Shown here: positions 13,116 through 64,000 of the stretch, piece after piece
How the letters are laid out: every line of letters begins with the position of its first letter
How positions within the stretch are numbered: position 1 is the first letter of the stretch
Assembly (NCBI GenBank): GCA_023078555.1
Contig: CM041198.1
Location: forward strand, 4,416,354 to 4,480,353
Direction of reading: 5' to 3'
Source: Ulva prolifera
Lineage: Eukaryota; Chlorophyta; Ulvophyceae; Ulvales; Ulvaceae
DNA: 64,000 nt
Program-made: the position numbers and the translations under genes
Notes under the pieces: model-generated
What the model was told of the DNA's origin: nothing
The model's input: the letters and a program-made list of their open reading frames with translations, nothing else
The model's database searches: none

Positions 13116-13154
<39 letters not shown>

Positions 13155-26582: not shown

Positions 26583-26612
26583 GTCCGCAGACGTCCGCAG
26601 ACGTCCGCAGAC
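26583..26612. repeat. 10-bp tandem repeat, three copies plus a variant
   Basis: GTCCGCAGAC is repeated at 26,583, 26,593 and 26,603, followed by GTATGCAAAC at 26,613. Confidence 0.9.
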
Positions 26613-26970: not shown

Positions 26971-27070
26971 NNNNNNNNNNNNNNNNNNNNNNNNNNNNNN
27001 NNNNNNNNNNNNNNNNNNNNNNNNNNNNNNNNNNNNNNNNNNNNNNNNNNNNNNNNNNNNNNNNNNNNNN
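26971..27070. other. assembly gap (100 N)
   Basis: Exactly 100 N, the usual placeholder for a gap of unknown size. The satellite array begins immediately to its right and none is present to its left, so the left edge of the array lies inside the gap. Confidence 0.98.
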
Positions 27071-30000
27071 CCCTCAGCAACCTCTGCCCTACACCTTTAA
27101 AACCTCTCCCGACAGGGATGGCACTCCATGTTGACTGCTTAACATGCAATCTCGACCTAGCAATCTGCCCTAGCAATCTCGCCCTAGCACCTCGCCCTAG
27201 CATCTCGCCCTAGCAATCTCGCCCTAGCAATCTCGCCCTACACCTTTAAATCTCTCCCGTTAGGCTGGCACTCCATGTTGATGCTTAACATGCAATCTCG
27301 CCCTAGCATCCGCCCTAGCAATCTCGCCCTAGCAACTCGCCCTACACCTTTAACCTCTCCCGACAGGCTGGCACTCCAGTTGAATGCTAACATGCAATCT
27401 CGACCTAGCAATCTCGCCCTAGCAATCTCGCCCTAGCAATCTCGCCTAGCAATCTCGCCCTAGCAATCTCGCCCTTAGCAATCTCGCCCTAGCAACCTCG
27501 CCCTACACCTTTAAACCTCTCCCGACAGGATGGCACTCCATGTTGAATGCTTAACATGCAATCTCGCCTAGCAATCTCGACCCTAGCCATCTCGCCCTAG
27601 CAATCTCGCCCTAGCAACCTCGCCCTACACCTTTTAACCTCCCGACATGATGGGCACTCCATGTTGAATGCTTAACATGCAATCTAGACTAGCCATCTCG
27701 CCCTAGCCATCTCGCCCTAGCAATCTCGCCTAGCACCTCGCCCTACACCTTTAAATCTCTCCCGTCAGGTTGGCACTCCATGTTGAATGCTTAACATGCA
27801 ATCTCGACCTAGCAATCTCGACCTAGCCATCTCCGCCCTAGCAATCTCGCCCTAGCAATCTCGCCCTACACCTTTAAATCTCTCCCGTCAGGCTGGCACT
27901 CCATGTTGAATGCTTAACATGCAATCTCGCCCTAGCAATCTCGCCCTAGCAATCTCGCCCTAGCAATCTCTCCCTAGCAATCTCGCCTAGCAATCTCGCC
28001 CTAGCAAATTGCCCTACACCTTTAAACTCTCCGACAGGCTGGCACTCCATGTTGAATGCTTAACATGCAATCTCGACCTAGCAATATCGACCTAGCCATC
28101 TCGCCCTAGCAATCTCGCCCTAGCCAACCTCGCCCTACCTTTAAATCTCTCCGTTAGGCTGGCACTCATGTTGAATTCTTAACATGCAATCTCGGCCCTA
28201 GCAATCTCGCCCTAGCAATCTCCCCTAGCAACCTCGCCCTACACCTTTAAACCTCTCCCGACAGGCTGGCACTCCATGTTGAATGCTTACATGCATCTGA
28301 CCTAGCATCTCGCCCTACGCAACTCGCCCTAGCAATCTCGCCCTAGCAACTCTCGCCCTAGCAAATCTCGCCCTAGCAATCTCGCCACCATAGCAATCTC
28401 GCCCTAGCAACCTCGCCCTACACCTTTAAACCTCTCCGACAGGCTGGCACTCCATGTTGAATGCTAACATGCAATCTCGACTAGCATATCGACCTAGCCA
28501 TCTCGCCTAGCAATCTCTCTCGCCCTAGCAACCTCGCCCTACACCTTTAAATCTCTCCCGTCAGGCTGGCACTCCATGTTGAATGCTTAACATGCAATCT
28601 CGCCTAGCAATCTCGCCCTAGCAATCTCGCCCTAGCAATCTCGCCCTAGCAATCTCGCCCTAGCAATCTCGCCCCTAGCAACCTCGCCTACACCTTTAAC
28701 CTCTCCGACAGGATTGCACTCCAGTTGAATGTCTAACATGCAATCTGACCTAGCAATCTCGACCTAGCCATCTCGCCCTAGCAATCTCGCTAGCAACCTC
28801 GCCCTACACCTTTAAACACCTCTCCCGACATGATGGCACTCCATGTTGAATGCTTAACATGCAATCTAGACCTAGCCATCTCGCCCTAGCCATCTCGCCC
28901 TAGCAATCTCGCCCTAGCAACCTCGCCCTACACCTTTAAATCTCTCCCCGTCAGGCGCACTCCATGTTGAATGCTTAACATGCAATCTCGACCTAGCCAA
29001 TCTCGACCTAGCCATCTCGCCCTAGCAATCTCGCCCATAGCAATCTCGCCCTAGCAATCTCGCCCTAGCAATCTCGCCCTAGCAACCTCGCCCTACACCT
29101 TTAAACCTCCTCTCCGACGGCTGGCACTCCATGTTGAATGCTTAACATGCAATCTCCGACCCTAGCAATATCGACCTAAGCCATCTCGCCCTAGCAATCT
29201 CGCACTAGCAACCTCCGCCCTACACCTTTAAATCGCTCCCGTCAGGCTGGCACTCCATGTTGAATGCTTAACATGCAATCTCGACCTAGCAATCTCGCCC
29301 TAGCAATCTCGCCCTAGCAATCTCGCCCTAGCAACCTCGCCCTAGCAACTCGCCCTAGCAATCTCGCCCTAGCAATCTCGCCCTACACCTTTAAATCTCT
29401 CCGTTAGGCTGGCACTCCATGTTGAATGCTTAACATGCAATCTCGCCCTAGCAATCTCGCCCTAGCAATCTCGCCCTAGCAACCTCGCCCTACACCTTTA
29501 AACCTCTCCCGCAGGCTGCACTCCATGTTGAATGCTAACATGCAATCTCGACCTAGCAATCTCGCCCTAGCAATCTCGCCCTAGCAATCTCGCCCTAGCA
29601 ATCTCGCCCTAGCAATCTCGCCCTAGCAACCTCGCCCTACACCTTTAAAACCTCTCCCGACAGGATGGCACTCCATGTTGAATGCTTAACATGCTAATCT
29701 CGACATAGCCATCTCGCCCTAGCCATCTCGCCCTAGCAATCTCGCCCTAGCAACCTCGCCCTACACCTTTAAACCTCTCCCGGCATGCTGGCACTCCATG
29801 TTGAATGCTTAACATGCAATCTCGACCTAGCAATCTCGCCCTAGCAATCTCGCCCTAGCAATCTCGCCCTAAGCAATCTCGCCCTACACCTTTAAACCTC
29901 TCCCGGCAGGCTGGCACTCCATGTTGAATGCTTAACATGCAATCTCGACCTAGCAATCTCGCCCTAGCAATCTCGCCCTAGCATCTCGCCCTAGCAATCT

Positions 30001-33000
30001 CGCCCTAGCAATCTCGCCCTAGCAACCTCGCCCTACACCTTTAAACCTCTCCCGACAGGATGGCACTCCATGTTGAATGCTTAACATGCAATCTCGACAT
30101 AGCCATCTCGCCCTAGCCATCTCGCCCTAGCAATCTCGCCCTAGCAACCTCGCCCTACACCTTTAAATCTCTCTCTCCCGTCAGGCTGGCACTTCCATGT
30201 TGAATGCTTAACATGCAAATCTCAGCCCTAGCAATCTCGCCCTAGCAATCTCGCCCTAGTAATCTCGCCCTGGCAATCTCGCCCTAGCAATCTCGCCCTA
30301 GCAAATTGCCCTACACCTTTAAACCTCTCCCGACAGGCTGGCACTCCATGTTGAATGCGTAACCAGTGCAATCTCGACCTAGCAATCTCGCCCTAGCAAT
30401 CTCGCCCTAGCAATCTCGCCCTAGCAATCTCGCCCTACACCTTTAAAACCTCTCCCGGCAGGCTGGCACTCCATGTTGAATGCTTACATGCAATCTCGAC
30501 CTAGCAATCTCGCCCTAGCAATCTCGCCCTAGCAATCTCGCCCTAGCATCTCGCCCTAGCAATCTCCGCCCTAGCAACCTCGCCCTAACACCTTTAAACC
30601 TCTCCCGACAGGATGGCACTCCATGTTGAATGCTTACATGCAATCTCGACATAGCCATCTCGCCCTAGCCATCTCGCCCTAGCAATCTCGCCCTAGCAAC
30701 CTCGCCCTACAACCTTTAAATCTCTCCCGTTAGGCTGGCACTCCATGTTGAATCTTAACATGCAATCTCGCCCTAGCAATCTCGCCCTAGCAATCTCGCC
30801 TAGCAACCTCGCCCTACACCTTAAACCTCTCCCGACAGGCTGGCACTCCATGTTGAATGCTTAACATGCAATCTCGCCCTAGCAATCTCGCCCTAGCAAT
30901 CTCGCCCTAGCAATCTCTCCCTAGCAATCTCGCCCTAGCAATCTCGCCCTAGCAAATTGCCCTACACCTTTAAACCTCTCCCGACAGGCTGGCACTCCAT
31001 GTTGAATGCTTAACATGCAATCTCGACCTAGCAATATCGACCTAGCCATCTCGCCCTAGCAATCTCGCCCTAGCAACCTCGCCCTACACCTTTAAATCTC
31101 TCCCGTTAGGCTGGCACTCCATGTTGAATGCTTAACATGCAATCTCGCCCTAGGCAATCTCGCCCTAGCAATTCTCGCCCTAGCAACCTCGCCCTACACC
31201 TTTAACCTCTCCCGACAGGCTGGCACTCCATGTTGAATGCTTAACATGCAATCTCGACCTAGCAATCGCGCCCTAGCAATCTCGCCCTAGCAATCTCGCC
31301 CTAGCAATCTCGCCCTAGCAATCTCGCCCTAGCAATCTCGCCCTAGCAACCTCGCCCTACACCTTTAAACCTCTCCCGACAGGCTGCACTCCATGTTGAA
31401 ATGCTTAACATGCAATCTCGACCTAGCATATCGACCTAGCCATCTCCGCCCTAGCAATCTCGCCTAGCAACCTCGCCCTACACCTTTAAATCTCTCCCGT
31501 CAGGCTGGCACTCCATGTTGAATGCTTAACATGCAATCTCGACCTAGCAATCTCGCCCTAGCAATCTCGCCCTAGCAATCTCGCCCTATCGCCCTAGCAA
31601 CCTCGCCCTAGCAATCTCGCCCTAGCAATCTCGCCCTAGCAATCTCGCCCTACACCTTTAAATCTCTCCCGTTAGGCTGGCACTCCATGTTGAATGCTTA
31701 ACATGCAATCTCGCCCGAGCAATCTCGCCCTAGCAATCTCGCCCTAGCAACCTCGCCCTACACCTTTAAACCTCTCCCGGCAGGCTGGCACTCCATGTTG
31801 AATGCTTAACATGCAATCTCGACCTAGCAATCTCGCCCTAGCAATCTCGCCCTAGCAATCTCGCCCTAGCAATCTCGCCCTAGCAATCTCGCCCTAGCAA
31901 CCTCGCCCTACACCTTTAAACCTCTCCCGACAGGATGGCACTCCATGTTGAATGCTTAACATGCAATCTCGACATAGCCATCTCGCCCTAAGCCATCTCG
32001 CCCTAGCAATCTCGCCCTAGCAACCTCGCCCTACACCTTTAAACCTCTCCCGGCAGGCTGGCACTCCATGTTGAATGCTTAACATGCAATCTCGACCTAG
32101 CAATCTCGCCCTAGCAATCTCGCCCTAGCATCTCGCCCTAGCAATCTCGCCCTACACCTTTAAACCTCTCCCGGCAGGCTGGCACTCCATGTTGAATGCT
32201 TAACATGCAATCTCGACCTAGCAATCTCGCCCTAGCAATCTCGCCCTAGCAATCTCGCCCTAGCAATCTCGCCCTAGCAATCTCGCCCTAGCAACCTCGC
32301 CCTACACCTTTAAACCTCTCCCGACAGGATGGCACTCCATGTTGAATGCTTAACATGCAATCTCGACATAGCCATCTCGCCCTAGCCATCTCGCCCTAGC
32401 AATCTCGCCCTAGCAACCTCGCCCTACACCTTTAAATCTCTCCCGTCAGGGCTGGCACTCCATGTTGAATGCTTAACATGCAATCTCGCCCTAGCAATCT
32501 CGCCCTAGCAATCTCGCCCTAGTAATCTCGCCCTGGCAATCTCGCCCTAGCAATCTCGCCCTAGCAAATTGCCCTACACCTTTAAACCTCTCCCGACAGG
32601 CTGGCACTCCATGTTGAATGCTTAACATGCAATCTCGACCTAGCAATCTCGCCCTAGCAATCTCGCCCTAGCAATCTCGCCCTAAGCAATCTCGCCCTAC
32701 ACCTTTAACCTCTCCCGCAGGCTGGCACTCCATGTTGAATGCTTAACATGCAATCTCGACCTAGCAATCTCGCCCTAGCAATCTCGCCCTAGCAATCTCG
32801 CCCTAGCAATCTCGCCCTAGCAATCTCGCCCTAGCAACCTCGCCCTACACCTTTAAACCTCTCCCGACAGGATGGCACTCCATGTTGAATGCTTAACATG
32901 CAATCTCGCCCTAGCAATCTCGCCCTAGCAATCTCGACCTAGCCACCTCGCCCTAGCAATCTCGCCCTAGCATCTCGCCCTACACCTTTAAATCTCTCCC

Positions 33001-33179
33001 GACAGGCTGGCACTCCATGTTGAATGCTTAACATGCAATCTCGCCCTAGCAATCTCGCCCTAGCAATCTCGCCCTAGCAATCTCGCCCTAGCAATCTCGC
33101 CCTAGCATCTCGCCCTAGCAAATTGCCCTACACCTTTAAACCTCTCCCGACAGGCTGGCACTCCATGTTGAATGCTTAA

Positions 33180-36100
33180 CATGCAATCTCGACCTAGCAA
33201 TCTCGACCTAGCCATCTCGCCCTAGCAATCTCGCCCTAGCAACCTCGCCCTACACCTTTAAATCTCTCCCGTCAGGCTGGCACTCCATGTTGAATGCTTA
33301 ACATGCAATCTCGCCCTAGCAATCTCGCCCTAGCAATCTCGCCCTAGCAACCTCGCCCTACACCTTTAAACCTCTCCCGGCAGGCTGGCACTCCATGTTG
33401 AATGCTTAACATGCAATCTCGACCTAGCAATCTCGCCCTAGCAATCTCGCCCTAGCAATCTCGCCCTAGCAATCTCGCCCTAGCAATCTCGCCCTAGCAA
33501 CCTCGCCCTACACCTTTAAACCTCTCCCGACAGGATGGCACTCCATGTTGAATGCTTAACATGCAATCTCGACATAGCCATCTCGCCCTAGCCATCTCGC
33601 CCTAGCAATCTCGCCCTAGCAACCTCGCCCTACACCTTTAAATCTCTCCCGTCAGGCTGGCACTCCATGTTGAATGCTTAACATGCAATCTCGCCCTAGC
33701 AATCTCGCCCTAGCAATCTCGACCTAGCAACCTCGCCCTAGCAATCTCGCCCTAGCAATCTCGCCCTACACCTTTAAATCTCTCCCGACAGGCTGGCACT
33801 CCATGTTGAATGCTTAACATGCAATCTCGCCCTAGCAATCTCGCCCTAGCAATCTCGCCCTAGCAATCTCTCCCTAGCAATCTCGCCCTAGCAATCTCGC
33901 CCTAGCAAATTGCCCTACACCTTTAAACCTCTCCCGACAGGCTGGCACTCCATGTTGAATGCTTAACATGCAATCTCGACCTAGCAATCTCGCCCTAGCA
34001 ATCTCGCCCTAGCAATCTCGCCCTAGCAATCTCGCCCTAGCAATCTCGCCCTAGCAATCTCGCCCTAGCAACCTCGCCCTACACCTTTAAACCTCTCCCG
34101 ACAGGATGGCACTCCATGTTGAATGCTTAACATGCAATCTCGACATAGCCATCTCGCCCTAGCCATCTCGCCCTAGCAATCTCGCCCTAGCAACCTCGCC
34201 CTACACCTTTAAATCTCTTCCGTCAGGCTGGCACTCCATGTTGAATGCTTAACATGCAATCTCGCCCTAGCAATCTCGCCCTAGCAATCTCGCCCTAGTA
34301 ATCTCGCCCTGGCAATCTCGCCCTAGCAATCTCGCCCTAGCAAATTGCCCTACACCTTTAAACCTCTCCCGACAGGCTGGCACTCCATGTTGAATGCTTA
34401 ACATGCAATCTCGACCTAGCAATCTCGCCCTAGCAATCTCGCCCTAGCAATCTCGCCCTAGCAATCTCGCCCTACACCTTTAAACCTCTCCCGGCAGGCT
34501 GGCACTCCATGTTGAATGCTTAACATGCAATCTCGACCTAGCAATCTCGCCCTAGCAATCTCGCCCTAGCAATCTCGCCCTAGCAATCTCGCCCTAGCAA
34601 CCTCGCCCTACACCTTTAAACCTCTCCCGACAGGATGGCACTCCATGTTGAATGCTTAACATGCAATCTCGACATAGCCATCTCGCCCTAGCCATCTCGC
34701 CCTAGCAATCTCGCCCTAGCAACCTCGCCCTACACCTTTAAATCTCTCCCGTCAGGCTGGCACTCCATGTTGAATGCTTAACATGCAATCTCGCCCTAGC
34801 AATCTCGCCCTAGCAATCTCGACCTAGCCACCTCGCCCTAGCAATCTCGCCCTAGCAATCTCGCCCTACACCTTTAAATCTCTCCCGACAGGCTGGCACT
34901 CCATGTTGAATGCTTAACATGCAATCTCGCCCTAGCAATCTCGCCCTAGCAATCTCGCCCTAGCAATCTCGCCCTAGCAATGTCGCCCTAGCAAATTGCC
35001 CTACACCTTTAAACCTCTCCCGACAGGCTGGCACTCCATGTTGAATGCTTAACATGCAATCTCGACCTAGCAATCTCGACCTAGCCATCTCGCCCTAGCA
35101 ATCTCGCCCTAGCAACCTCGCCCTACACCTTTAAATCTCTCCCGTCAGGCTGGCACTCCATGTTGAATGCTTAACATGCAATCTCGCCCTAGCAATCTCG
35201 CCCTAGCAATCTCGCCCTAGCAACCTCGCCCTACACCTTTAAACCTCTCCCGGCAGGCTGGCACTCCATGTTGAATGCTTAACATGCAATCTCGACCTAG
35301 CAATCTCGCCCTAGCAATCTCGCCCTAGCAATCTCGCCCTAGCAATCTCGCCCTAGCAATCTCGCCCTAGCAACCTCGCCCTACACCTTTAAACCTCTCC
35401 CGACAGGATGGCACTCCATGTTGAATGCTTAACATGCAATCTCGACATAGCCATCTCGCCCTAGCCATCTCGCCCTAGCAATCTCGCCCTAGCAACCTCG
35501 CCCTACACCTTTAAATCTCTCCCGTCAGGCTGGCACTCCATGTTGAATGCTTAACATGCAATCTCGCCCTAGCAATCTCGCCCTAGCAATCTCGACCTAG
35601 CAACCTCGCCCTAGCAATCTCGCCCTAGCAATCTCGCCCTACACCTTTAAATCTCTCCCGACAGGCTGGCACTCCATGTTGAATGCTTAACATGCAATCT
35701 CGCCCTAGCATCTCGCCCTAGCAATCTCGCCCTAGCAATCTCTCCCTAGCAATCTCGCCCTAGCAATCTCGCCCTAGCAAATTGCCCTACACCTTTAAAC
35801 CTCTCCCGACAGGCTGGCACTCCATGTTGAATGCTTAACATGCAATCTCGACCTAGCAATCTCGCCCTAGCAATCTCGCCCTAGCAATCTCGCCCTAGCA
35901 ATCTCGCCCTAGCAATCTCGCCCTAGCAATCTCGCCCTAGCAACCTCGCCCTACACCTTTAAACCTCTCCCGACAGGCTGGCACTCCATGTTGAATGCTT
36001 AACATGCAATCTCGACCTAGCAATATCGACCTAGCCATCTCGCCCTAGCAATCTCGCCCTAGCAACCTCGCCCTACACCTTTAAATCTCTCCCGTCAGGC

Positions 36101-39100
36101 TGGCACTCCATGTTGAATGCTTAACATGCAATCTCGACCTAGCAATCTCGCCCTAGCAATCTCGCCCTAGCAATCTCGCCCTAGCAACCTCGCCCTAGCA
36201 ATCTCGCCCTAGCAATCTCGCCCTAGCAATCTCGCCCTACACCTTTAAATCTCTCCCGTTAGGCTGGCACTCCATGTTGAATGCTTAACATGCAATCTCG
36301 CCCTAGCAATCTCGCCCTAGCAATCTCGCCCTAGCAACCTCGCCCTACACCTTTAAACCTCTCCCGGCAGGCTGGCACTCCATGTTGAATGCTTAACATG
36401 CAATCTCGACCTAGCAATCTCGCCCTAGCAATCTCGCCCTAGCAATCTCGCCCTAGCAATCTCGCCCTAGCAATCTCGCCCTAGCAACCTCGCCCTACAC
36501 CTTTAAACCTCTCCCGACAGGATGGCACTCCATGTTGAATGCTTACATGCAATCTCGACATAGCCATCTCGCCCTAGCCATCTCGCCCTAGCAATCTCGC
36601 CCTAGCAACCTCGCCCTACACCTTTAAATCTCTCCCGTCAGGCTGGCACTCCATGTTGAATGCTTAACATGCAATCTCGCCCTAGCAATCTCGCCCTAGC
36701 AATCTCGACCTAGCAACCTCGCCCTAGCAATCTCGCCCTAGCAATCTCGCCCTAGCAATCTCGCCCTACACCTTTAAATCTCTCCCGACAGGCTGGCACT
36801 CCATGTTGAATGCTTAACATGCAATCTCGCCCTAGCAATCTCGCCCTAGCAATCTCGCCCTAGCAATCTCGCCCTAGCAATCTCGCCCTAGCAATCTCGC
36901 CCTAGCAAATTGCCCTACACCTTTAAACCTCTCCCGACAGGCTGGCACTCCATGTTGAATGCTTAACATGCAATCTCGACCTAGCAATCTCGACCTAGCC
37001 ATCTCGCCCTAGCAATCTCGCCCTAGCAACCTCGCCCTACACCTTTAAATCTCTCCCGTCAGGCTGGCACTCCATGTTGAATGCTTAACATGCAATCTCG
37101 CCCTAGCAATCTCGCCCTAGCAATCTCGCCCTAGTAATCTCGCCCTGGCAATCTCGCCCTAGCAATCTCGCCCTAGCAAATTGCCCTACACCTTTAAACC
37201 TCTCCCGACAGGCTGGCACTCCATGTTGAATGCTTAACATGCAATCTCGACCTAGCAATCTCGCCCTAGCAATCTCGCCCTAGCAATCTCGCCCTAGCAA
37301 TCTCGCCCTACACCTTTAAACCTCTCCCGGCAGGCTGGCACTCCATGTTGAATGCTTAACATGCAATCTCGACCTAGCAATCTCGCCCTAGCAATCTCGC
37401 CCTAGCAATCTCGCCCTAGCAATCTCGCCCTAGCAATCTCGCCCTAGCAACCTCGCCCTACACCTTTAAACCTCTCCCGACAGGATGGCACTCCATGTTG
37501 AATGCTTAACATGCAATCTCGACATAGCCATCTCGCCCTAGCCATCTCGCCCTAGCAATCTCGCCCTAGCAACCTCGCCCTACACCTTAAATCTCTCCCG
37601 TCAGGCTGGCACTCCATGTTGAATGCTTAACATGCAATCTCGCCCTAGCAATCTCGCCCTAGCAATCTCGACCTAGCCACCTCGCCCTAAGCAATCTCGC
37701 CCTAGCAATCTCGCCCTACACCTTTAAATCTCTCCCGACAGGCTGGCACTCCATGTTGAATGCTTAACATGCAATCTCGCCCTAGCAATCTCGCCCTAGC
37801 AATCTCGCCCTAGCAATCTCGCCTAGCAATGTCGCCCTAGCAAATTGCCCTACACCTTTAAACCTCTCCCGACAGGCTGGCACTCCATGTTGAATGCTTA
37901 ACATGCAATCTCGACCTAGCAATCTCGACCTAGCCATCTCGCCCTAGCAATCTCGCCCTAGCAACCTCGCCCTACCACCTTTAAATCTCTCCCGTCATGC
38001 TGGCACTCCATGTTGAATGCTTAACATGCAATCTCGCCCTAGCAATCTCGCCCTAGCAATCTCGCCCTATCAACCTCGCCCTACACCTTTAAACCTCTCC
38101 CGGCAGGCTGGCACTCCATGTTGAATGCTTAACATGCAATCTCGACCTAGCAATCTCGCCCTAGCAATCTCGCCCTAGCAATCTCGCCCTAGCAATCTCG
38201 CCCTAGCAATCTCGCCCTAGCAACCTCGCCCTACACCTTTAAACCTCTCCCGACAGGATGGCACTCCATGTTGAATGCTTAACATGCAATCTCGACATAG
38301 CCATCTCGCCCTAGCCATCTCGCCCTAGCAATCTCGCCCTAGCAACCTCGCCCTACACCTTTAAATCTCTCCCGTCAGGCTGGCACTCCATGTTGAATGC
38401 TTAACATGCAATCTCGCCCTAGCAATCTCGCCCTAGCAATCTCGACCTAGCAACCTCGCCCTAGCAATCTCGCCCTAGCAATCTCGCCCTACACCTTTAA
38501 ATCTCTCCCGACAGGCTGGCACTCCATGTTGAATGCTTAACATGCAATCTCGCCCTAGCAATCTCGCCCTAGCAATCTCGCCCTAGCAATCTCTCCCTAG
38601 CAATCTCGCCCTAGCAATCTCGCCCCCCCTACACCTTTAAACCTCTCCCGACAGGCTGGCACTCCATGTTGAATGCTTAACATGCAATCTCGACCTAGCA
38701 ATCTCGCCCTAGCAATCTCGCCCTAGCAATCTCGCCCTAGCAATCTCGCCCTAGCAATCTCGCCCTAGCAATCTCGCCCTAGCAACCTCGCCCTACACCT
38801 TTAAACCTCTCCCGACAGGCTGGCACTCCATGTTGAATGCTTAACATGCAATCTCGACCTAGCAATATCGACCTAGCCATCTCGCCCTAGCAATCTCGCC
38901 CTAGCAACCTCGCCCTACACCTTTAAATCTCTCCCGTCAGGCTGGCACTCCATGTTGAATGCTTAACATGCAATCTCGACCTAGCAATCTCGCCCTAGCA
39001 ATCTCGCCCTAGCAATCTCGCCCTAGCAACCTCGCCCTAGCAATCTCGCCCTAGCAATCTCGCCCTAGCAATCTCGCCCTACACCTTTAAATCTCTCCCG

Positions 39101-49600: not shown

Positions 49601-52600
49601 CCCGACAGGATGGCACTCCATGTTGAATGCTTAACATGCAATCTCGACATAGCCATCTCGCCCTAGCCATCTCGCCCTAGCAATCTCGCCCTAGCAACCT
49701 CGCCCTACACCTTTAAATCTCTCCCGTCAGGCCCTCACTCCATGTTGAATGCTTAACATGCAATCTCGCCCTAGCAATCTCGCCCTAGCAATCTCGCCCT
49801 AGTAATCTCGCCCTGGCAATCTCGCCCTAGCAATCTCGCCCTAGCAAATTGCCCTACACCTTTAAACCTCTCCCGACAGGCTGGCACTCCATGTTGAATG
49901 CTTAACATGCAATCTCGACCTAGCAATCTCGCCCTAGCAATCTCGCCCTAGCAATCTCGCCCTAGCAATCTCGCCCTACACCTTTAAACCTCTCCCGGCA
50001 GGCTGGCACTCCATGTTGAATGCTCAACATGCAATCTCGACCTAGCAATCTCGCCCTAGCAATCTCGCCCTAGCAATCTCGCCCTAGCAATCTCGCCCTA
50101 GCAATCTCGCCCTAGCAACCTCGCCCTACACCTTTAAACCTCTCCCGACAGGATGGCACTCCATGTTGAATGCTTAACATGCAATCTCGACATAGCCATC
50201 TCGCCCTAGCCATCTCGCCCTAGCAATCTCGCCCTAGCAACCTCGCCCTACACCTTTAAATCTCTCCCGTCAGGCTGGCACTCCATGTTGAATGCTTAAC
50301 ATGCAATCTCGCCCTAGCAATCTCGCCCTAGCAATCTCGACCTAGCCACCTCGCCCTAGCAATCTCGCCCTAGCAATCTCGCCCTACACCTTTAAATCTC
50401 TCCCGACAGGCTGGCACTCCATGTTGAATGCTTAACATGCAATCTCGCCCTAGCAATCTCGCCCTAGCAATCTCGCCCTAGCAATCTCGCCCTAGCAATC
50501 TCGCCCTAGCAATCTCGCCCTAGCAAATTGCCCTACACCTTTAAACCTCTCCCGACAGGCTGGCACTCCATGTTGAATGCTTAACATGCAATCTCGACCT
50601 AGCAATCTCGACCTAGCCATCTCGCCCTAGCAATCTCGCCCTAGCAACCTCGCCCTACACCTTTAAATCTCTCCCGTCAGGCTGGCACTCCATGTTGAAT
50701 GCTTAACATGCAATCTCGCCCTAGCAATCTCGCCCTAGCAATCTCGCCCTAGCAACCTCGCCCTACACCTTTAAACCTCTCCCGGCAGGCTGGCACTCCA
50801 TGTTGAATGCTTAACATGCAATCTCGACCTAGCAATCTCGCCCTAGCAATCTCGCCCTAGCAATCTCGCCCTAGCAATCTCGCCCTAGCAATCTCGCCCT
50901 AGCAACCTCGCCCTACACCTTTAAACCTCTCCCGACAGGATGGCACTCCATGTTGAATGCTTAACATGCAATCTCGACATAGCCATCTCGCCCTAGCCAT
51001 CTCGCCCTAGCAATCTCGCCCTAGCAACCTCGCCCTACACCTTTAAATCTCTCCCGTCAGGCTGGCACTCCATGTTGAATGCTTAACATGCAATCTCGCC
51101 CTAGCAATCTCGCCCTAGCAATCTCGACCTAGCAACCTCGCCCTAGCAATCTCGCCCTAGCAATCTCGCCCTACACCTTTAAATCTCTCCCGACAGGCTG
51201 GCACTCCATGTTGAATGCTTAACATGCAATCTCGCCCTAGCAATCTCGCCCTAGCAATCTCGCCCTAGCAATCTCTCCCTAGCAATCTCGCCCTAGCAAT
51301 CTCGCCCTAGCAAATTGCCCTACACCTTTAAACCTCTCCCGACAGGCTGGCACTCCATGTTGAATGCTTAACATGCAATCTCGACCTAGCAATCTCGCCC
51401 TAGCAATCTCGCCCTAGCAATCTCGCCCTAGCAATCTCGCCCTAGCAATCTCGCCCTAGCAATCTCGCCCTAGCAACCTCGCCCTACACCTTTAAACCTC
51501 TCCCGACAGGATGGCACTCCATGTTGAATGCTTAACATGCAATCTCGACATAGCCATCTCGCCCTAGCCATCTCGCCCTAGCAATCTCGCCCTAGCAACC
51601 TCGCCCTACACCTTTAAATCTCTCCCGTCAGGCTGGCACTCCATGTTGAATGCTTAACATGCAATCTCGCCCTAGCAATCTCGCCCTAGCAATCTCGCCC
51701 TAGTAATCTCGCCCTGGCAATCTCGCCCTAGCAATCTCGCCCTAGCAAATTGCCCTACACCTTTAAACCTCTCCCGACTGGCTGGCACTCCATGTTGAAT
51801 GCTTAACATGCAATCTCGACCATGCAATCTCGCCCTAGCAATCTCGCCCTAGCAATCTCGCCCTAGCAATCTCGCCCTACACCTTTAAACCTCTCCCGGC
51901 AGGCTGGCACTCCATGTTGAATGCTTAACATGCAATCTCGCCCTAGCAATCTCGCCCTAGCAATCTCGACCTAGCCACCTCGCCCTAGCAATCTCGCCCT
52001 AGCAAATTGCCCTACACCTTTAAACCTCTCCCGACAGGCTGGCACTCCATGTTGAATGCTTAACATGCAATCTCGACCTAGCAATCTCGACCTAGCCATC
52101 TCGCCCTAGCAATCTCGCCCTAGCAACCTCGCCCTAGCAAATTGCCCTACACCTTTAAACCTCTCCCGACAGGCTGGCACTCCATGTTGAATGCTTAACA
52201 TGCAATCTCGACCTAGCAATCTCGACCTAGCCATCTCGCCCTAGCAATCTCGCCCTAGCAACCTCGCCCTACACCTTTAAATCTCTCCCGTCAGGCTGGC
52301 ACTCCATGTTGAATGCTAAACATGCAATCTCGCCCTAGCAATCTCGCCCTAGCAATCTCGCCCTAGTAATCTCGCCCTAGCAATCTCGCCCTAGCAATCT
52401 CGCCCTAGCAAATTGCCCTACACCTTTAAACCTCTCCCGACAGGCTGGCACTCCATGTTGAATGCTTAACATGCAATCTCGACCTAGCAATCTGGCCCTA
52501 GCAATCTCGCCCTAGCAATCTCGCCCTAGCAATCTCGCCCTAGCAATCTCGCCCTACACCTTTAAATCTCTCCCGACAGGCTGGCACTCCATGTTGAATG

Positions 52601-54599
52601 CTTAACATGCAATCTCGACCTAGCAATCTGGCCCTAGCAATCTCGCCCTAGCAATCTCGCCCTAGCAATCTCGCCCTAGCAATCTCGCCCTACACCTTTA
52701 AATCTCTCCCGGCAGGCTGGCACTCCATGTTGAATGCTTAACATGCAATCTCGCCCTAGCAATCTCGCCCTAGCAATCTCGACCTAGCAACCTCGCCCTA
52801 GCAATCTCACCCTAGCAATCTCGCCCTAGCAACCTCGCCCTACACCTTTAAACCTCTCCCGGCAGGCTGGCACTCCATGTTGAATGCTTAACATGCAATC
52901 TCGCCCTAGCAATCTCGCCCTAGCAATCTCGACCTAGCAATCTCGCCCTAGCAATCTCGCCGTAGCAACCTCGCCCTACACCTTTAAACCTCTCCCGACA
53001 GGCTGGCACTCCATGTTGAATGCTTAACATGCAATCTCGACCTAGCAATCTCGCACTAGCAATCTCGCCCTAGCAATCTCGCCCTACACCTTTAAATCTC
53101 TCCCGTCAGGCTGGCACTCCATGTTGAATGCTTAACATGCAATCTCGCCCTAGCAATCTCGCCCTAGCAATCTCGCCCTAGCAATCTCGCCCTAGCAATC
53201 TCGCCCTAGCAATCTCGCCCTAGCAACCTCGCCCTACACCTTTAAACCTCTCCCGACAGGATGGCACTCCATGTTGAATGCTTAACATGCAATCTCGACC
53301 TAGCAATCTCGACCTAGCCATCTCGCCCTAGCAATCTCGCCCTAGCAACCTCGCCCTACACCTTTAAACCTCTCCCGACATGATGGCACTCCATGTTGAA
53401 TGCTTAACATGCAATCTCGACATAGCCATCTCGCCCTAGCCATCTCGCCCTAGCAATCTCGCCCTAGCAATCTCGCCCTAGCAATCTCGCCCTACACCTT
53501 TAAATCTCTCCCGGCAGGCTGGCACTCCATGTTGAATGCTTAACATGCAATCTCGCCCTAGCAATCTCGCCCTAGCAATCTCGACCTAGCAACCTCGCCC
53601 TAGCAATCTCACCCTAGCAATCTCGCCCTAGCAACCTCGCCCTACACCTTTAAACCTCTCCCGGCAGGCTGGCACTCCATGTTGAATGCTTAACATGCAA
53701 TCTCGCCCTAGCAATCTCGCCCTAGCAATCTCGACCTAGCAATCTCGCCCTAGCAATCTCGCCGTAGCAACCTCGCCCTACACCTTTAAACCTCTCCCGA
53801 CAGGCTGGCACTCCATGTTGAATGCTTAACATGCAATCTCGCCCTAGCAATCTCGCCCTAGCAATCTCGACCTAGCAACCTCGCCCTAGCAATCTCACCC
53901 TAGCAATCTCGCCCTAGCAACCTCGCCCTACACCTTTAAACCTCTCCCGGCAGGCTGGCACTCCATGTTGAATGCTTAACATGCAATCTCGCCCTAGCAA
54001 TCTCGCCCTAGCAATCTCTCCCTAGCAATCTCGCCCTAGCAATCTCGCCCTAGCAAATTGCCCTACACCTTTAAACCTCTCCCGACAGGCTGGCACTCCA
54101 TGTTGAATGCTTAACATGCAATCTCGACCTAGCAATATCGACCTAGCCATCTCGCCCTAGCAATCTCGCCCTAGCAACCTCGCCCTACACCTTTAAATCT
54201 CTCCCGTCAGGCTGGCACTCCATGTTGAATGCTTAACATGCAATCTCGACCTAGCAATCTCGCCCTAGCAATCTCGCCCTAGCAACCTCGCCCTAGCAAT
54301 CTCGCCCTAGCAATCTCGCCCTACACCTTTAAATCTCTCCCGTTAGGCTGGCACTCCATGTTGAATGCTTAACATGCAATCTCGCCCTAGCAATCTCGCC
54401 CTAGCAATCTCGCCCTAGCAACCTCGCCCTACACCTTTAAACCTCTCCCGACAGGCTGGCACTCCATGTTGAATGCTTAACATGCAATCTCGACCTAGCA
54501 ATCTCGCCCTAGCAATCTCGCCCTAGCAATCTCGCCCTAGCAATCTCGCCCTAGCAATCTCGCCCTAGCAATCTCGCCCTAGCAACCTCGCCCTACACC

Positions 54600-57500
54600 T
54601 TTAAACCTCTCCCGACAGGCTGGCACTCCATGTTGAATGCTTAACATGCAATCTCGACCTAGCAATATCGACCTAGCCATCTCGCCCTAGCAATCTCGCC
54701 CTAGCAACCTCGCCCTACACCTTTAAATCTCTCCCGTCAGGCTGGCACTCCATGTTGAATGCTTAACATGCAATCTCGACCTAGCAATCTCGCCCTAGCA
54801 ATCTCGCCCTAGCAATCTCGCCCTAGCAACCTCGCCCTAGCAATCTCGCCCTAGCAATCTCGCCCTAGCAATCTCGCCCTACACCTTTAAATCTCTCCCG
54901 TTAGGCTGGCACTCCATGTTGAATGCTTAACATGCAATCTCGCCCTAGCAATCTCGCCCTAGCAATCTCGCCCTAGCAACCTCGCCCTACACCTTTAAAC
55001 CTCTCCCGGCAGGCTGGCACTCCATGTTGAATGCTTAACATGCAATCTCGACCTAGCAATCTCGCCCTAGCAATCTCGCCCTAGCAATCTCGCCCTAGCA
55101 ATCTCGCCCTAGCAATCTCGCCCTAGCAACCTCGCCCTACACCTTTAAACCTCTCCCGACAGGATGGCACTCCATGTTGAATGCTTAACATGCAATCTCG
55201 ACATAGCCATCTCGCCCTAGCCATCTCGCCCTAGCAATCTCGCCCTAGCAACCTCGCCCTACACCTTTAAATCTCTCCCGACAGGCTGGCACTCCATGTT
55301 GAATGCTTAACATGCAATCTCGCCCTAGCAATCTCGCCCTAGCAATCTCGCCCTAGCAATCTCGCCCTAGCAATCTCGCCCTAGCAATCTCGCCCTAGCA
55401 AATTGCCCTACACCTTTAAACCTCTCCCGACAGGCTGGCACTCCATGTTGAATGCTTAACATGCAATCTCGACCTAGCAATCTCGACCTAGCCATCTCGC
55501 CCTAGCAATCTCGCCCTAGCAACCTCGCCCTACACCTTTAAATCTCTCCCGTCAGGCTGGCACTCCATGTTGAATGCTTAACATGCAATCTCGCCCTAGC
55601 AATCTCGCCCTAGCAATCTCGCCCTAGTAATCTCGCCCTGGCAATCTCGCCCTAGCAATCTCGCCCTAGCAAATTGCCCTACACCTTTAAACCTCTCCCG
55701 ACAGGCTGGCACTCCATGTTGAATGCTTAACATGCAATCTCGACCTAGCAATCTCGCCCTAGCCATCTCGCCCTAGCAATCTCGCCCTAGCAACCTCGCC
55801 CTACACCTTTAAATCTCTCCCGTCAGGCTGGCACTCCATGTTGAATGCTTAACATGCAATCTCGCCCTAGCAATCTCGCCCTAGCAATCTCGACCTAGCC
55901 ACCTCGCCCTAGCAATCTCGCCCTAGCAATCTCGCCCTACACCTTTAAATCTCTCCCGACAGGCTGGCACTCCATGTTGAATGCTTAACATGCAATCTCG
56001 CCCTAGCAATCTCGCCCTAGCAATCTCGCCCTAGCAATCTCGCCCTAGCAATCTCGCCCTAGCAATCTCGCCCTAGCAAATTGCCCTACACCTTTAAACC
56101 TCTCCCGACAGGCTGGCACTCCATGTTGAATGCTTAACATGCAATCTCGACCTAGCAATCTCGACCTAGCCATCTCGCCCTAGCAATCTCGCCCTAGCAA
56201 CCTCGCCCTACACCTTTAAATCTCTCCCGTCAGGCTGGCACTCCATGTTGAATGCTTAACATGCAATCTCGCCCTAGCAATCTCGCCCTAGCAATCTCGC
56301 CCTAGTAATCTCGCCCTAGCAATCTCGCCCTAGCAATCTCGCCCTAGCAAATTGCCCTACACCTTTAAACCTCTCCCGACAGGCTGGCACTCCATGTTGA
56401 ATGCTTAACATGCAATCTCGACCTAGAAATCTCGCCCTAGCAATCTCGCCCTAGCAATCTCGCCCTAGCAATCTCGCCCTAGCAATCTCGCCCTAGCAAT
56501 CTCGCCCTACACCTTTAAATCTCTCCCGACAGGCTGGCACTCCATGTTGAATGCTTAACATGCAATCTCGCCCTAGCAATCTCGCCCTAGCAATCTCTCC
56601 CTAGCAATCTCGCCCTAGCAATCTCGCCCTAGCAACCTCGCCCTACACCTTTAAACCTCTCCCGACAGGCTGGCACTCCATGTTGAATGCTTAACATGCA
56701 ATCTCGACCTAGCAATATCGACCTAGCCATCTCGCCCTAGCAATCTCGCCCTAGCAACCTCGCCCTACACCTTTAAATCTCTCCCGTCAGGCTGGCACTC
56801 CATGTTGAATGCTTAACATGCAATCTCGACCTAGCAATCTCGCCCTAGCAATCTCGCCCTAGCAATCTCGCCCTAGCAACCTCGCCCTAGCAATCTCGCC
56901 CTAGCAATCTCGCCCTAGCAATCTCGCCCTACACCTTTAAATCTCTCCCGTTAGGCTGGCACTCCATGTTGAATGCTTAACATGCAATCTCGCCCTAGCA
57001 ATCTCGCCCTAGCAATCTCGCCCTAGCAACCTCGCCCTACACCTTTAAACCTCTCCCGGCAGGCTGGCACTCCATGTTGAATGCTTAACATGCAATCTCG
57101 ACCTAGCAATCTCGCCCTAGCAATCTCGCCCTAGCAATCTCGCCCTAGCAATCTCGCCCTAGCAATCTCGCCCTAGCAACCTCGCCCTACACCTTTAAAC
57201 CTCTCCCGACAGGATGGCACTCCATGTTGAATGCTTAACATGCAATCTCGACATAGCCATCTCGCCCTAGCCATCTCGCCCTAGCAATCTCGCCCTAGCA
57301 ACCTCGCCCTACACCTTTAAATCTCTCCCGACAGGCTGGCACTCCATGTTGAATGCTTAACATGCAATCTCGCCCTAGCAATCTCGCCCTAGCAATCTCG
57401 CCCTAGCAATCTCGCCCTAGCAATCTCGCCCTAGCAATCTCGCCCTAGCAAATTGCCCTACACCTTTAAACCTCTCCCGACAGGCTGGCACTCCATGTTG

Positions 57501-58630
57501 AATGCTTAACATGCAATCTCGACCTAGCAATCTCGACCTAGCCATCTCGCCCTAGCAATCTCGCCCTAGCAACCTCGCCCTACACCTTTAAATCTCTCCC
57601 GTCAGGCTGGCACTCCATGTTGAATGCTTAACATGCAATCTCGCCCTAGCAATCTCGCCCTAGCAATCTCGCCCTAGTAATCTCGCCCTGGCAATCTCGC
57701 CCTAGCAATCTCGCCCTAGCAAATTGCCCTACACCTTTAAACCTCTCCCGACAGGCTGGCACTCCATGTTGAATGCTTAACATGCAATCTCGACCTAGCA
57801 ATCTCGCCCTAGCCATCTCGCCCTAGCAATCTCGCCCTAGCAACCTCGCCCTACACCTTTAAATCTCTCCCGTCAGGCTGGCACTCCATGTTGAATGCTT
57901 AACATGCAATCTCGCCCTAGCAATCTCGCCCTAGCAATCTCGACCTAGCCACCTCGCCCTAGCAATCTCGCCCTAGCAATCTCGCCCTACACCTTTAAAT
58001 CTCTCCCGACAGGCTGGCACTCCATGTTGAATGCTTAACATGCAATCTCGCCCTAGCAATCTCGCCCTAGCAATCTCGCCCTAGCAATCTCGCCCTAGCA
58101 ATCTCGCCCTAGCAATCTCGCCCTAGCAAATTGCCCTACACCTTTAAACCTCTCCCGACAGGCTGGCACTCCATGTTGAATGCTTAACATGCAATCTCGA
58201 CCTAGCAATCTCGACCTAGCCATCTCGCCCTAGCAATCTCGCCCTAGCAACCTCGCCCTACACCTTTAAATCTCTCCCGTCAGGCTGGCACTCCATGTTG
58301 AATGCTTAACATGCAATCTCGCCCTAGCAATCTCGCCCTAGCAATCTCGCCCTAGTAATCTCGCCCTAGCAATCTCGCCCTAGCAATCTCGCCCTAGCAA
58401 ATTGCCCTACACCTTTAAACCTCTCCCGACAGGCTGGCACTCCATGTTGAATGCTTAACATGCAATCTCGACCTAGAAATCTCGCCCTAGCAATCTCGCC
58501 CTAGCAATCTCGCCCTAGCAATCTCGCCCTAGCAATCTCGCCCTAGCAATCTCGCCCTACACCTTTAAATCTCTCCCGACAGGCTGGCACTCCATGTTGA
58601 ATGCTTAACATGCAATCTCGCCCTAGCAAT
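54600..58630. repeat. 2,050-bp higher-order tandem duplication
   Basis: About 2 kb starting near 54,600 is repeated at an offset of exactly 2,050 bp. Matching marks include the GACATAGCC block (55,201 and 57,251), the TAGTAATC...CTGGC block, and the rare unit ACCTAGAAATC (56,421 and 58,471). The copies diverge near 56,596 and 58,646. Confidence 0.8.
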
Positions 58631-61600
58631 CTCGCCCTAGCAATCTCGCCCTAGCAATCTCGCCCTACACCTTTAAATCTATCCCGGCAGGCTGGCACTC
58701 CATGTTGAATGCTTAACATGCAATCTCGCCCTAGCAATCTCGCCCTAGCAATCTCGACCTAGCAACCTCGCCCTAGCAATCTCACCCTAGCAATCTCGCC
58801 CTAGCAATCTCGCCCTACACCTTTAAATCTCTCCCGACAGGCTGGCACTCCATGTTGAATGCTTAACATGCAATCTCGCCCTAGCAATCTCGCCCTAGCA
58901 ATCTCGCCCTAGCAATCTCACCCTAGCAATCTCGCCCTAGCAATCTCGCCCTACACCTTTAAATCTCTCCCGACAGGCTGGCACTCCATGTTGAATGCTT
59001 AACATGCAATCTCGCCCTAGCAATCTCACCCTAGCAATCTCGCCCTAGCAATCTCGCCCTACACCTTTAAATCTCTCCCGACAGGCTGGCACTCCATGTT
59101 GAATGCTTAACATGCAATCTCGCCCTAGCAATCTCGCCCTAGCAATCTCGACCTAGCCACCTCGCCCTAGCAATCTCGCCCTAGCAATCTCGCCCTACAC
59201 CTTTAAATCTCTCCCGACAGGCTGGCACTCCATGTTGAATGCTTAACATGCAATCTCGCCCTAGCAATCTCGCCCTAGCAATCTCGCCCTAGCAATCTCG
59301 CCCTAGCAATCTCGCCCTAGCAATCTCGCCCTAGCAAATTGCCCTACACCTTTAAACCTCTCCCGACAGGCTGGCACTCCATGTTGAATGCTTAACATGC
59401 AATCTCGACCTAGCAATCTCGACCTAGCCATCTCGCCCTAGCAATCTCGCCCTAGCAACCTCGCCCTACACCTTTAAATCTCTCCCGGCAGGCTGGCACT
59501 CCATGTTGAATGCTTAACATGCAATCTCGCCCTAGCAATCTCGCCCTAGCAATCTCGACCTAGCAACCTCGCCCTAGCAATCTCACCCTAGCAATCTCGC
59601 CCTAGCAATCTCGCCCTAGCAATCTCGCCCTAGCAAATTGCCCTACACCTTTAAATCTCTCCCGACAGGCTGGCACTCCATGTTGAATGCTTAACATGCA
59701 ATCTCGCCCTAGCAATCTCGCCCTAGCAATCTCGCCCTAGCAATCTCGCCCTAGCAATCTCGCCCTAGTAATCTCGCCCTACACCTTTAAATCTCTCCCG
59801 ACAGGATGGCACTCCATGTTGAATGCTCAACATGCAATCTCGACCTAGCAATCTCGCCCTAGCAATCTCGCCCTAGCAATCTCGCCCTAGCAATCTCGCC
59901 CTAGCAATCTCGCCCTAGCAACCTCGCCCTACACCTTTAAACCTCTCCCGACAGGCTGGCACTCCATGTTGAATGCTTAACATGCAATCTCGACCTAGCA
60001 ATCTCGCCCTAGCAATCTCGCCCTAGCAATCTCGCCCTAGTAATCTCGCCCTAGCAATCTCGCCCTAGCAATCTCGCCCTAGCAAATTGCCCTACACCTT
60101 TAAACCTCTCCCGACAGGCTGGCACTCCATGTTGAATGCTTAACATGCAATCTCGACCTAGCAATCTCGACCTAGCCATCTCGCCCTAGCAATCTCGCCC
60201 TACACCTTTAAATCTCTCCCGGCAGGCTGGCACTCCATGTTGAATGCTTAACATGCAATCTCGCCCTAGCAATCTCGCCCTAGCAATCTCGACCTAGCAA
60301 CCTCGCCCTAGCAATCTCACCCTAGCAATCTCGCCCTAGCAATCTCGCCCTACACCTTTAAATCTCTCCCGACAGGCTGGCACTCCATGTTGAATGCTTA
60401 ACATGCAATCTCGCCCTAGCAATCTCGCCCTAGCAATCTCGCCCTAGCAATCTCGCCCTAGCAATCTCGCCCTAGCAATCTCGCCCTACACCTTTAAACC
60501 TCTCCCGGCAGGCTGGCACTCCATGTTGAATGCTTAACATGCAATCTCGCCCTAGCAATCTCGCCCTAGCAATCTCGACCTAGCAATCTCGCCCTAGCAA
60601 TCTCGCCGTAGCAACCTCGCCCTACACCTTTAAACCTCTCCCGACAGGCTGGCACTCCATGTTGAATGCTTAACATGCAATCTCGACCTAGCAATCTCGC
60701 ACTAGCAATCTCGCCCTAGCAATCTCGCCCTACACCTTTAAATCTCTCCCGTCAGGCTGGCACTCCATGTTGAATGCTTAACATGCAATCTCGCCCTAGC
60801 AATCTCGCCCTAGCAATCTCGCCCTAGCAATCTCGCCCTAGCAATCTCGCCCTAGCAATCTCGCCCTAGCAACCTCGCCCTACACCTTTAAACCTCTCCC
60901 GACAGGATGGCACTCCATGTTGAATGCTTAACATGCAATCTCGACCTAGCAATCTCGACCTAGCCATCTCGCCCTAGCAATCTCGCCCTAGCAACCTCGC
61001 CCTACACCTTTAAACCTCTCCCGACATGATGGCACTCCATGTTGAATGCTTAACATGCAATCTAGACCTAGCCATCTCGCCCTAGCCATCTCGCCCTAGC
61101 AATCTCGCCCTAGCAACCTCGCCCTACACCTTTAAATCTCTCCCGTCAGGCTGGCACTCCATGTTGAATGCTTAACATGCAATCTCGACCTAGCAATCTC
61201 GACCTAGCCATCTCGCCCTAGCAATCTCGCCCTAGCAATCTCGCCCTACACCTTTAAATCTCTCCCGTCAGGCTGGCACTCCATGTTGAATGCTTAACAT
61301 GCAATCTCGCCCTAGCAATCTCGCCCTAGCAATCTCGCCCTAGCAATCTCTCCCTAGCAATCTCGCCCTAGCAATCTCGCCCTAGCAAATTGCCCTACAC
61401 CTTTAAACCTCTCCCGACAGGCTGGCACTCCATGTTGAATGCTTAACATGCAATCTCGACCTAGCAATATCGACCTAGCCATCTCGCCCTAGCAATCTCG
61501 CCCTAGCAACCTCGCCCTACACCTTTAAATCTCTCCCGTCAGGCTGGCACTCCATGTTGAATGCTTAACATGCAATCTCGACCTAGCAATCTCGCCCTAG

Positions 61601-64000
61601 CAATCTCGCCCTAGCAACCTCGCCTTAGCAATCTCGCCCTAGCAATCTCGCCCTACACCTTTAAATCTCTCCCGTTAGGCTGGCACTCCATGTTGAATGC
61701 TTAACATGCAATCTCGCCCTAGCAATCTCGCCCTAGCAATCTCGCCCTAGCAACCTCGCCCTACACCTTTAAACCTCTCCCGACAGGCTGGCACTCCATG
61801 TTGAATGCTTAACATGCAATCTCGACCTAGCAATCTCGCCCTAGCAATCTCGCCCTAGCAATCTCGCCCTAGCAATCTCGCCCTAGCAATCTCGCCCTAG
61901 CAATCTCGCCCTAGCAACCTCGCCCTACACCTTTAAACCTCTCCCGACAGGCTGGCACTCCATGTTGAATGCTTAACATGCAATCTCGACCTAGCAATAT
62001 CGACCTAGCCATCTCGCCCTAGCAATCTCGCCCTAGCAACCTCGCCCTACACCTTTAAATCTCTCCCGTCAGGCTGGCACTCCATGTTGAATGCTTAACA
62101 TGCAATCTCGACCTAGCAATCTCGCCCTAGCAATCTCGCCCTAGCAATCTCGCCCTAGCAACCTCGCCCTAGCAATCTCGCCCTAGCAATCTCGCCCTAG
62201 CAATCTCGCCCTACACCTTTAAATCTCTCCCGTTAGGCTGGCACTCCATGTTGAATGCTTAACATGCAATCTCGCCCTAGCAATCTCGCCCTAGCAATCT
62301 CGCCCTAGCAACCTCGCCCTACACCTTTAAACCTCTCCCGGCAGGCTGGCACTCCATGTTGAATGCTTAACATGCAATCTCGACCTAGCAATCTCGCCCT
62401 AGCAATCTCGCCCTAGCAATCTCGCCCTAGCAATCTCGCCCTAGCAACCTCGCCCTACACCTTTAAACCTCTCCCGACAGGATGGCACTCCATGTTGAAT
62501 GCTTAACATGCAATCTCGACATAGCCATCTCGCCCTAGCCATCTCGCCCTAGCAATCTCGCCCTAGCAACCTCGCCCTACACCTTTAAATCTCTCCCGAC
62601 AGGCTGGCACTCCATGTTGAATGCTTAACATGCAATCTCGCCCTAGCAATCTCGCCCTAGCAATCTCGCCCTAGCAATCTCGCCCTAGCAATCTCGCCCT
62701 AGCAATCTCGCCCTAGCAAATTGCCCTACACCTTTAAACCTCTCCCGACAGGCTGGCACTCCATGTTGAATGCTTAACATGCAATCTCGACCTAGCAATC
62801 TCGACCTAGCCATCTCGCCCTAGCAATCTCGCCCTAGCAACCTCGCCCTACACCTTTAAATCTCTCCCGTCAGGCTGGCACTCCATGTTGAATGCTTAAC
62901 ATGCAATCTCGCCCTAGCAATCTCGCCCTAGCAATCTCGCCCTAGTAATCTCGCCCTGGCAATCTCGCCCTAGCAATCTCGCCCTAGCAAATTGCCCTAC
63001 ACCTTTAAACCTCTCCCGACAGGCTGGCACTCCATGTTGAATGCTTAACATGCAATCTCGACCTAGCAATCTCGCCCTAGCAATCTCGCCCTAGCAATCT
63101 CGCCCTACACCTTTAAACCTCTCCCGGCAGGCTGGCACTCCATGTTGAATGCTTAACATGCAATCTCGACCTAGCAATCTCGCCCTAGCAATCTCGCCCT
63201 GGCAATCTCGCCCTAGCAATCTCGCCCTAGCAATCTCGCCCTAGCAACCTCGCCCTACACCTTTAAACCTCTCCCGACAGGATGGCACTCCATGTTGAAT
63301 GCTTAACATGCAATCTCGACATAGCCATCTCGCCCTAGCCATCTCGCCCTAGCAATCTCGCCCTAGCAACCTCGCCCTACACCTTTAAATCTCTCCCGTC
63401 AGGCTGGCACTCCATGTTGAATGCTTAACATGCAATCTCGCCCTAGCAATCTCGCCCTAGCAATCTCGACCTAGCCACCTCGCCCTAGCAATCTCGCCCT
63501 AGCAATCTCGCCCTACACCTTTAAATCTCTCCCGACAGGCTGGCACTCCATGTTGAATGCTTAACATGCAATCTCGCCCTAGCAATCTCGCCCTAGCAAT
63601 CTCGCCCTAGCAATCTCGCCCTAGCAATCTCGCCCTAGCAATCTCGCCCTAGCAAATTGCCCTACACCTTTAAACCTCTCCCGACAGGCTGGCACTCCAT
63701 GTTGAATGCTTAACATGCAATCTCGACCTAGCAATATCGACCTAGCCATCTCGCCCTAGCAATCTCGCCCTAGCAACCTCGCCCTACACCTTTAAATCTC
63801 TCCCGTCAGGCTGGCACTCCATGTTGAATGCTTAACATGCAATCTCGCCCTAGCAATCTCGCCCTAGCAATCTCGCCCTAGTAATCTCGCCCTAGCAATC
63901 TCGCCCTAGCAATCTCGCCCTAGCAAATTGCCCTACACCTTTAAACCTCTCCCGACAGGCTGGCACTCCATGTTGAATGCTTAACATGCAATCTCGACCT

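Follow-up and report, generated by a model that had tools for sequence, protein, structure and literature searches.

Organization of the locus

The window analyzed here is the 64,000-bp stretch C3:4416354-4480353 of the Ulva prolifera assembly GCA_023078555.1 (88.9 Mb, 44 contigs), in which C3 is contig CM041198.1; positions given without a contig are counted from the first base of the window. From 27071 to its end the window is filled by a head-to-tail satellite array that runs on beyond it, in keeping with a preliminary description made from the sequence alone. Tandem Repeats Finder (TRF) reports the array within the window at 27798-64000, with a period of 122, 268 copies, and a score of 35365. 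The array is assembled in pieces, which belong to two domains, A and B, considered below.

26971..27070, no strand: 100-N assembly gap at what looks like the left end of the array (sequence and N scan)
27071..40230, + strand: array piece 1, domain A, with noisy spacing from 27071 to ~32000 and just before 40230
40231, no strand: single-N join next to a truncated block (N scan)
40232..64000, + strand: array piece 2, domain A, running past the window as far as another single-N join, at 66208, after which domain B follows

Beyond the gap, the N scan of the contiguous ~237 kb of C3 array (C3:4443424 to 4680353) found single Ns at 40231 and 66208 and none other. Position 27071, which had been put forward as the start of the array, is the edge of the 100-N gap; sequence resumes there, and it is no biological boundary.

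Block structure

The array is built of blocks in which a run of 14-bp units follows a header. Using a fuzzy header anchor, we parsed 275 headers in the 36,930 bp of array in the window, 1,800 in the 200,000 bp of C3 that adjoin it, 95 in C3:4745354-4755353 (stretch L029), 41 and 54 in two stretches of C4 (C4a and C4b), and 60 in a stretch of C7. Header spacing equals 52+14n in 59/59 intervals on C7 and in 40/40 and 53/53 intervals on C4 (93/93 together), whereas a chance phase would, by argument, spread over 14 classes. This spacing upholds the 14-bp unit and the 14-bp steps of block length in the preliminary description and sets the header at 52 bp rather than the 54 bp given there. One block, read directly from the sequence, serves as an example.

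30036..30087, + strand: 52-bp header
30088..30157, + strand: run of five 14-bp units, the first a GACATA variant and the last an AACC variant

On C3 the spacing is less uniform. It is exactly 52+14n in 185 of 274 intervals in the window, with 54 one base short and 35 otherwise off; in the adjoining C3 sequence 1317 of 1799 are exact, 278 are at +1, 200 at -1, and 4 other, and in L029 the corresponding counts are 59 of 94 exact, 30 at +1, and 5 at -1. The +1 and -1 classes fit 53-bp and 51-bp header forms, which are seen in common block sequences. Contrary to what had been supposed, headers are not strictly fixed but vary among 51-, 52-, and 53-bp forms and between two sequence classes, A and B. 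The unit count n is 4-9 (rounded) in the window, plus one block of 2, and 2-9 across contiguous C3; one run of 11 occurs in L029, and runs reach 15 on C4. Mean C3 block length is 134 bp in the window and 111 bp outside it.

The 35 off-phase blocks of the window all begin before 42071. At finer binning, with the +1 class excluded, 27 such blocks are counted, 19 in 27070-33070, 7 in 37570-40570, and 1 between, and a further 4 fall in two bins after 66000. Most lie within ~6 kb of the 100-N gap or just ahead of the 40231 join, and we infer that off-phase spacing reflects consensus errors near contig ends.

Within the window the array appears to be non-coding. Its clean part contains no open frame of at least 60 amino acids; all 8 frames listed touch the gap or the noisy edge, and no protein appears to be encoded there. 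Header intervals reach at most 178 bp over the contiguous 237 kb, so that no inserted element is present in that stretch, and one interval of 206 bp occurs in L029.

A header dyad, CATGTT-N8-AACATG, was considered and rejected as an established feature because a perfect 6-bp arm arose in 134/1000 block shuffles. A variant with 8-bp arms arose in only 7/1000 shuffles, yet it is a minority form (98/1800 headers, C3 outside the window). Folding of the header DNA gave z near 0 on both strands.

Higher-order repeats and two domains

Above the block level, the C3 array is highly redundant. Its 2073 blocks comprise 433 distinct sequences, of which 221 occur a single time, and unique 200-mers start at 46,523/236,730 positions of the contiguous stretch. 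A scan of that stretch, covering the 200 commonest lags only, found longest exact repeats of 5304, 4612, and 4350 bp at lags of 5284, 7821, and 5041, respectively. Among the exact repeats listed, a single one, 2049 bp long, lies wholly within the window; it bears out the kilobase higher-order repeats noted earlier. Another exact match ties piece 1 to piece 2.

54549..56597, + strand: higher-order repeat copy, 2049 bp identical to 56599-58647, lag 2050
56599..58647, + strand: second copy of the 2049-bp higher-order repeat
33107..34600, + strand: 1494-bp stretch identical to 45216-46709

The array in the window is domain A throughout. CAGTCC headers are counted from the 59-67 kb bin onward, and from ~66.2 kb domain B mixes CAGTCC, AGGTTATC, and ACTTCCCG header forms. 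The header class switches at the single N at 66208. The longest exact match to domain B is 260 bp for piece 2 and 245 bp for piece 1, compared with 1494 bp between the domain A pieces and 5304 bp within B.

These observations raise the question of whether domain A, up to 66207, has been misjoined to domain B, in which case its location on C3 would be false. The link to B is that one N, the link to the left flank is 100 Ns, the change of header class coincides with the former, and exact matches across it are far shorter than those on either side. Domain A also shares 60-mers with L029, at the far end of the C3 array, barely more (0.18 in 7-kb windows) than with C7 (0.16). However, sharing between A and B has a mean of 0.23 (0.12-0.42), above that of A with C7 or with C4 (0.13), and for one A window it declines unevenly with distance, as expected of true neighbors, from 0.31 at the join to ~0.2 past 144 kb with a minimum of 0.13 at 151 kb. 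Sharing within B (0.47) and between B and L029 (0.41) is higher, and that of B with C7 (0.10) and C4 (0.06) is lower. Taken together, 60-mer sharing and the pattern of exact matches indicate two distinct domains, A and B, which are probably, though not certainly, true neighbors, and we regard a misjoin as unlikely.

Turnover within the array

Within identical two-block contexts on either side, 74 pairs of C3 blocks differ, 44 of them by 1-2 substitutions only. The other 30 differ in length, by 14 bp in 16 cases and by 28 bp in 9, so that 25/30 correspond to one or two whole units. This directly supports the earlier proposal of whole-unit length change inside runs accompanied by homogenization.

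The units at the ends of runs have their own variants. We counted these in distinct runs of at least 4 units from exact-phase blocks, excluding shorter runs and off-phase blocks. The GACC unit (GCAATCTCGACCTA) stands at the first place in 59/125 distinct runs of C3 outside the window, compared with 25/541 elsewhere in the run; the same preference is seen in the window (17/43 versus 9/204), L029 (12/19 versus 1/78), C7 (14/16 versus 4/66), and C4b (11/30 versus 35/212, p 0.013). The AACC unit (GCAACCTCGCCCTA) favors the last place in the window (17/43 versus 6/204), C3 outside the window (25/125 versus 19/541), C4a (7/19 versus 0/111), C4b (11/30 versus 1/212), C7 (3/16 versus 0/66), and L029 (3/19 versus 2/78, p 0.05). 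Because first and last units tend to retain their own variants, copy number would change mainly inside the run. That these end variants are common to three chromosomes suggests that most copy-number changes are more recent than the end units.

The simplest mechanism would be slippage or unequal exchange in runs, followed by amplification of blocks and kilobase stretches. Replication slippage or short unequal exchange would add 14-mers to runs and remove them, kilobase stretches would be copied within a chromosome by unequal crossing-over or a related form of amplification, and exchange between chromosomes would be rare. The header itself might descend from 14-mers: local alignment of header and unit trimer scores 10 (shuffle mean 5.9), a score reached by 53/2000 shuffles, and the B header scores 11, reached by 16/2000. 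These alignments are suggestive only.

Distribution in the assembly

The preliminary description had proposed searching the assembly with the header. Allowing up to 3 mismatches, the header core gives 3854 forward and 71 reverse matches; among the matches listed, these form arrays of ~322-327 kb on C3, ~149-180 kb on C4, and 7-8 kb on C7. On C3, array sequence was read or sampled by probes from 4443424 to 4765099, with probes at 4757500, 4760000, and 4765000 inside it and one at 4770000 outside; its size is taken from these end-points, with 4680354-4745353 (65 kb) covered by search hits only and ~10 kb at the right end by small probes. On C4 the first listed place is 9496235, 6/6 probes from 9560000 to 9645000 are inside the array, and those at 9490000 and 9670000 are outside; continuity is assumed, with 14 kb read besides the probes. 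The C7 array extends on the minus strand from 6255009 to at least 6262313, and a probe at 6263000 lies outside it.

At densities of 6.7-9.4 headers per kb, these three arrays would, by our estimate, hold roughly all copies of the family. The matches listed all fall on C3, C4, or C7, with none on C1, C2, or a further contig, although stray copies elsewhere are possible. Places for the header begin at C3, whereas those for a palindromic minisatellite (AGTGGCCATTCG NN GAATGGCCACT) begin at C1, and C1 and C2 therefore appear to be without exact header copies. Block repertoires are chromosome-specific: 0/93 C4 blocks and 5/59 C7 blocks recur in the contiguous C3 stretch, compared with 58/94 L029 blocks.

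Tandem repeats flank the C4 array at 9490000 and 9670000 (40 bases read at each; a 19-bp unit at the latter), suggesting that its surroundings are a multi-satellite region. The palindromic minisatellite occurs in short tandem clusters in C7:6252000-6261999, at ~1270-1700 of that stretch, and at C3:4850000. In the assembly it is matched exactly 320 times forward and 318 times in reverse, a palindrome usually being counted on both strands.

Nature of the array

We consider it likely that the array belongs to a non-coding satellite family, found on three chromosome-size contigs, that evolves at three scales through run slippage or unequal exchange and kilobase amplification. The family is putatively, and probably, heterochromatic. 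Explaining the array needs no sequence-encoded function. Its arrays are long and consist of similar units arranged head to tail, as in satellites generally, and its near-identical multi-block units, with exact repeats of 1.5-5.3 kb, are higher-order repeats in the usual sense.

Several points weigh against this account. Among the length-differing block pairs, 5/30 are off by 1 bp (3), 8 bp (1), or 9 bp (1). Nor does the end-unit rule hold everywhere: in C4a, GACC units stand first in 4/19 runs versus 21/111 elsewhere (p 0.76). Some of the exact duplications could be assembly errors, and the long-range order of the array is not wholly certain, given that the part read was put together from at least three assembled pieces. 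The array also illustrates how single-N joins and contig ends can mimic block variation.

The sequence appears to be new as far as searched and of a known kind, with a monomer of elastic length as its unusual feature. No match to any of four consensus strings was found in the literature text searched; this does not prove the family unpublished, but the match to a published satellite that the preliminary description had allowed for did not emerge. The header 27-mer has no exact match in viral and prokaryote collections, nor the unit dimer in the viral collection, searches with little bearing on eukaryotes.

The family can be compared with other tandem repeats. Like minisatellites, or variable number tandem repeats (VNTR), it has a short unit, whole-unit variation in copy number, and variants at run ends, but here thousands of short runs are split by a near-constant header rather than forming one locus. 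Subrepeats of ribosomal DNA (rDNA) intergenic spacers are likewise short repeats nested within a larger tandem unit. No Rfam family matches the window, however, which means that it contains no rRNA, and this search shows none of the adjacent rRNA genes of an rDNA spacer; the spacer match raised as an alternative in the preliminary description did not appear, and the C3 array runs without interruption over 237 kb.

Whatever its role, the array offers a clear natural record of how a satellite turns over at three scales and is a useful model. Its runs count gains and losses of 14-mers, its headers and end units supply a frame for alignment, and its kilobase duplications reveal amplification.

Centromeric and subtelomeric readings

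Centromeric satellites such as human alpha and plant CEN repeats are also long, non-coding, head-to-tail arrays with near-identical multi-block repeats and chromosome-specific variants. The Ulva family differs from them in its monomer length, which is not fixed (a 52-bp header with 2-15 units of 14 bp), and in its presence on three contigs only, among the matches listed. A centromeric role, at which the preliminary description hinted, is no more than a possibility.

Size, position, and higher-order structure are what speak for a possible centromere. This reading holds that the C3 and C4 arrays are the CenH3-bound centromeres of those chromosomes, with other sequences serving the remaining ones. 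Each of the two contigs carries a single large array, at 36-38% of C3 and at ~85-86% of C4; the higher-order repeats are chromosome-specific, the contiguous 237 kb of C3 has no insertion, and the other tandem repeats beside the C4 array are pericentromere-like. The assembly has two candidate CenH3 genes, both divergent histone H3 genes: one (C5:7027706-7027966) carries a long insertion within its loop region, and the best PDB match of the other (C4:901544-902008, match at 901805) is a CENP-A/H3.1 chimera, at 57 bits compared with 54 for ordinary H3. However, a centromeric satellite would be expected at one locus per chromosome, and restriction to C3, C4, and C7, among the matches listed, argues against a general one. 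The C7 copy spans just 7-8 kb near telomere-like repeats. Mean block length varies along C3, and both means, 111 and 134 bp, fall below the usual nucleosome repeat. The header has neither a significant dyad (134/1000 shuffles) nor an unusual fold.

The centromeres of other green algae also count against this reading. The accessible text of a survey (PMC11005252) describes putative centromeres rich in transposable elements in each of six green algae, and reports CENH3 chromatin immunoprecipitation sequencing for two Chlorella species, in whose centromeres it mentions no tandem satellite. Those centromeres (Zepp-like long interspersed nuclear elements, Copia) resemble the Ulva arrays as discrete repeat-rich loci, but according to that text they are transposon clusters. 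Were CenH3 to be located on the Ulva array, satellite centromeres would enter the green algae, a notable finding against the background of the surveyed species (PMC11005252). On this evidence we find the centromere reading doubtful. Its fuller form, in which the C3 and C4 arrays are green-algal satellite centromeres with a length-elastic monomer and the tiny C7 array is their seed or relic, is rather improbable.

A subtelomeric satellite that was moved or placed inside the chromosome by rearrangement or scaffolding could account for the setting of the C7 array, which ends at most ~2.7 kb from degenerate TTAGGG/TTAGGGG repeats 255 kb from the contig end (C7:6265000-6265099). The repeat that precedes the array on C3 also has diverged copies (81% and 64% identity) at the end of C1 and close to where C5 starts. 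However, both the C3 and the C4 array are more than 1 megabase from contig ends, the two ends of C3 (50 bases each) lack satellite and telomere repeat, and the window contains none of the five telomere-like dimers tested. We consider a subtelomeric origin decidedly unlikely and favor the non-coding satellite family described above.

Left flank and other observations

To the left of the gap lie repeats that do not belong to the array.

3514-4012: tandem duplication of 244 bp, 2.0 copies, 96% matching (TRF)
7459-7892: tandem duplication of 183 bp, 2.4 copies, 94% matching (TRF)
25400..26900, + strand: dispersed repeat of the left flank, outside the array, with matches on C1 to C10 (assembly search)

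The dispersed repeat has 69 matches elsewhere across C1 to C10. Pfam searches of 18 distinct flank frames gave weak retroelement matches below cut-off; a match to PF23364 at 27.2 against a 27-bit cut-off, in a frame spanning the 183-bp tandem repeat, is left uninterpreted. Frames on the + strand of 10700-16500 combine weak reverse-transcriptase matches, below the family cut-off in those at 13.0-14.1 kb, with an HSLRAGAAT motif, which is reminiscent of tyrosine-recombinase (DIRS-like) elements. A run of 34 Gs at 13118-13151 lies inside a frame of this retroelement-like region. An Arabidopsis-type telomere 28-mer has no exact match in the assembly. The assembly's photosynthetic green lineage is borne out by 38 chlorophyll-binding matches and by matches above cut-off to the SBP domain, a green-plant family, and one light-harvesting complex protein has chlorophyll a-b binding proteins among its PDB matches.

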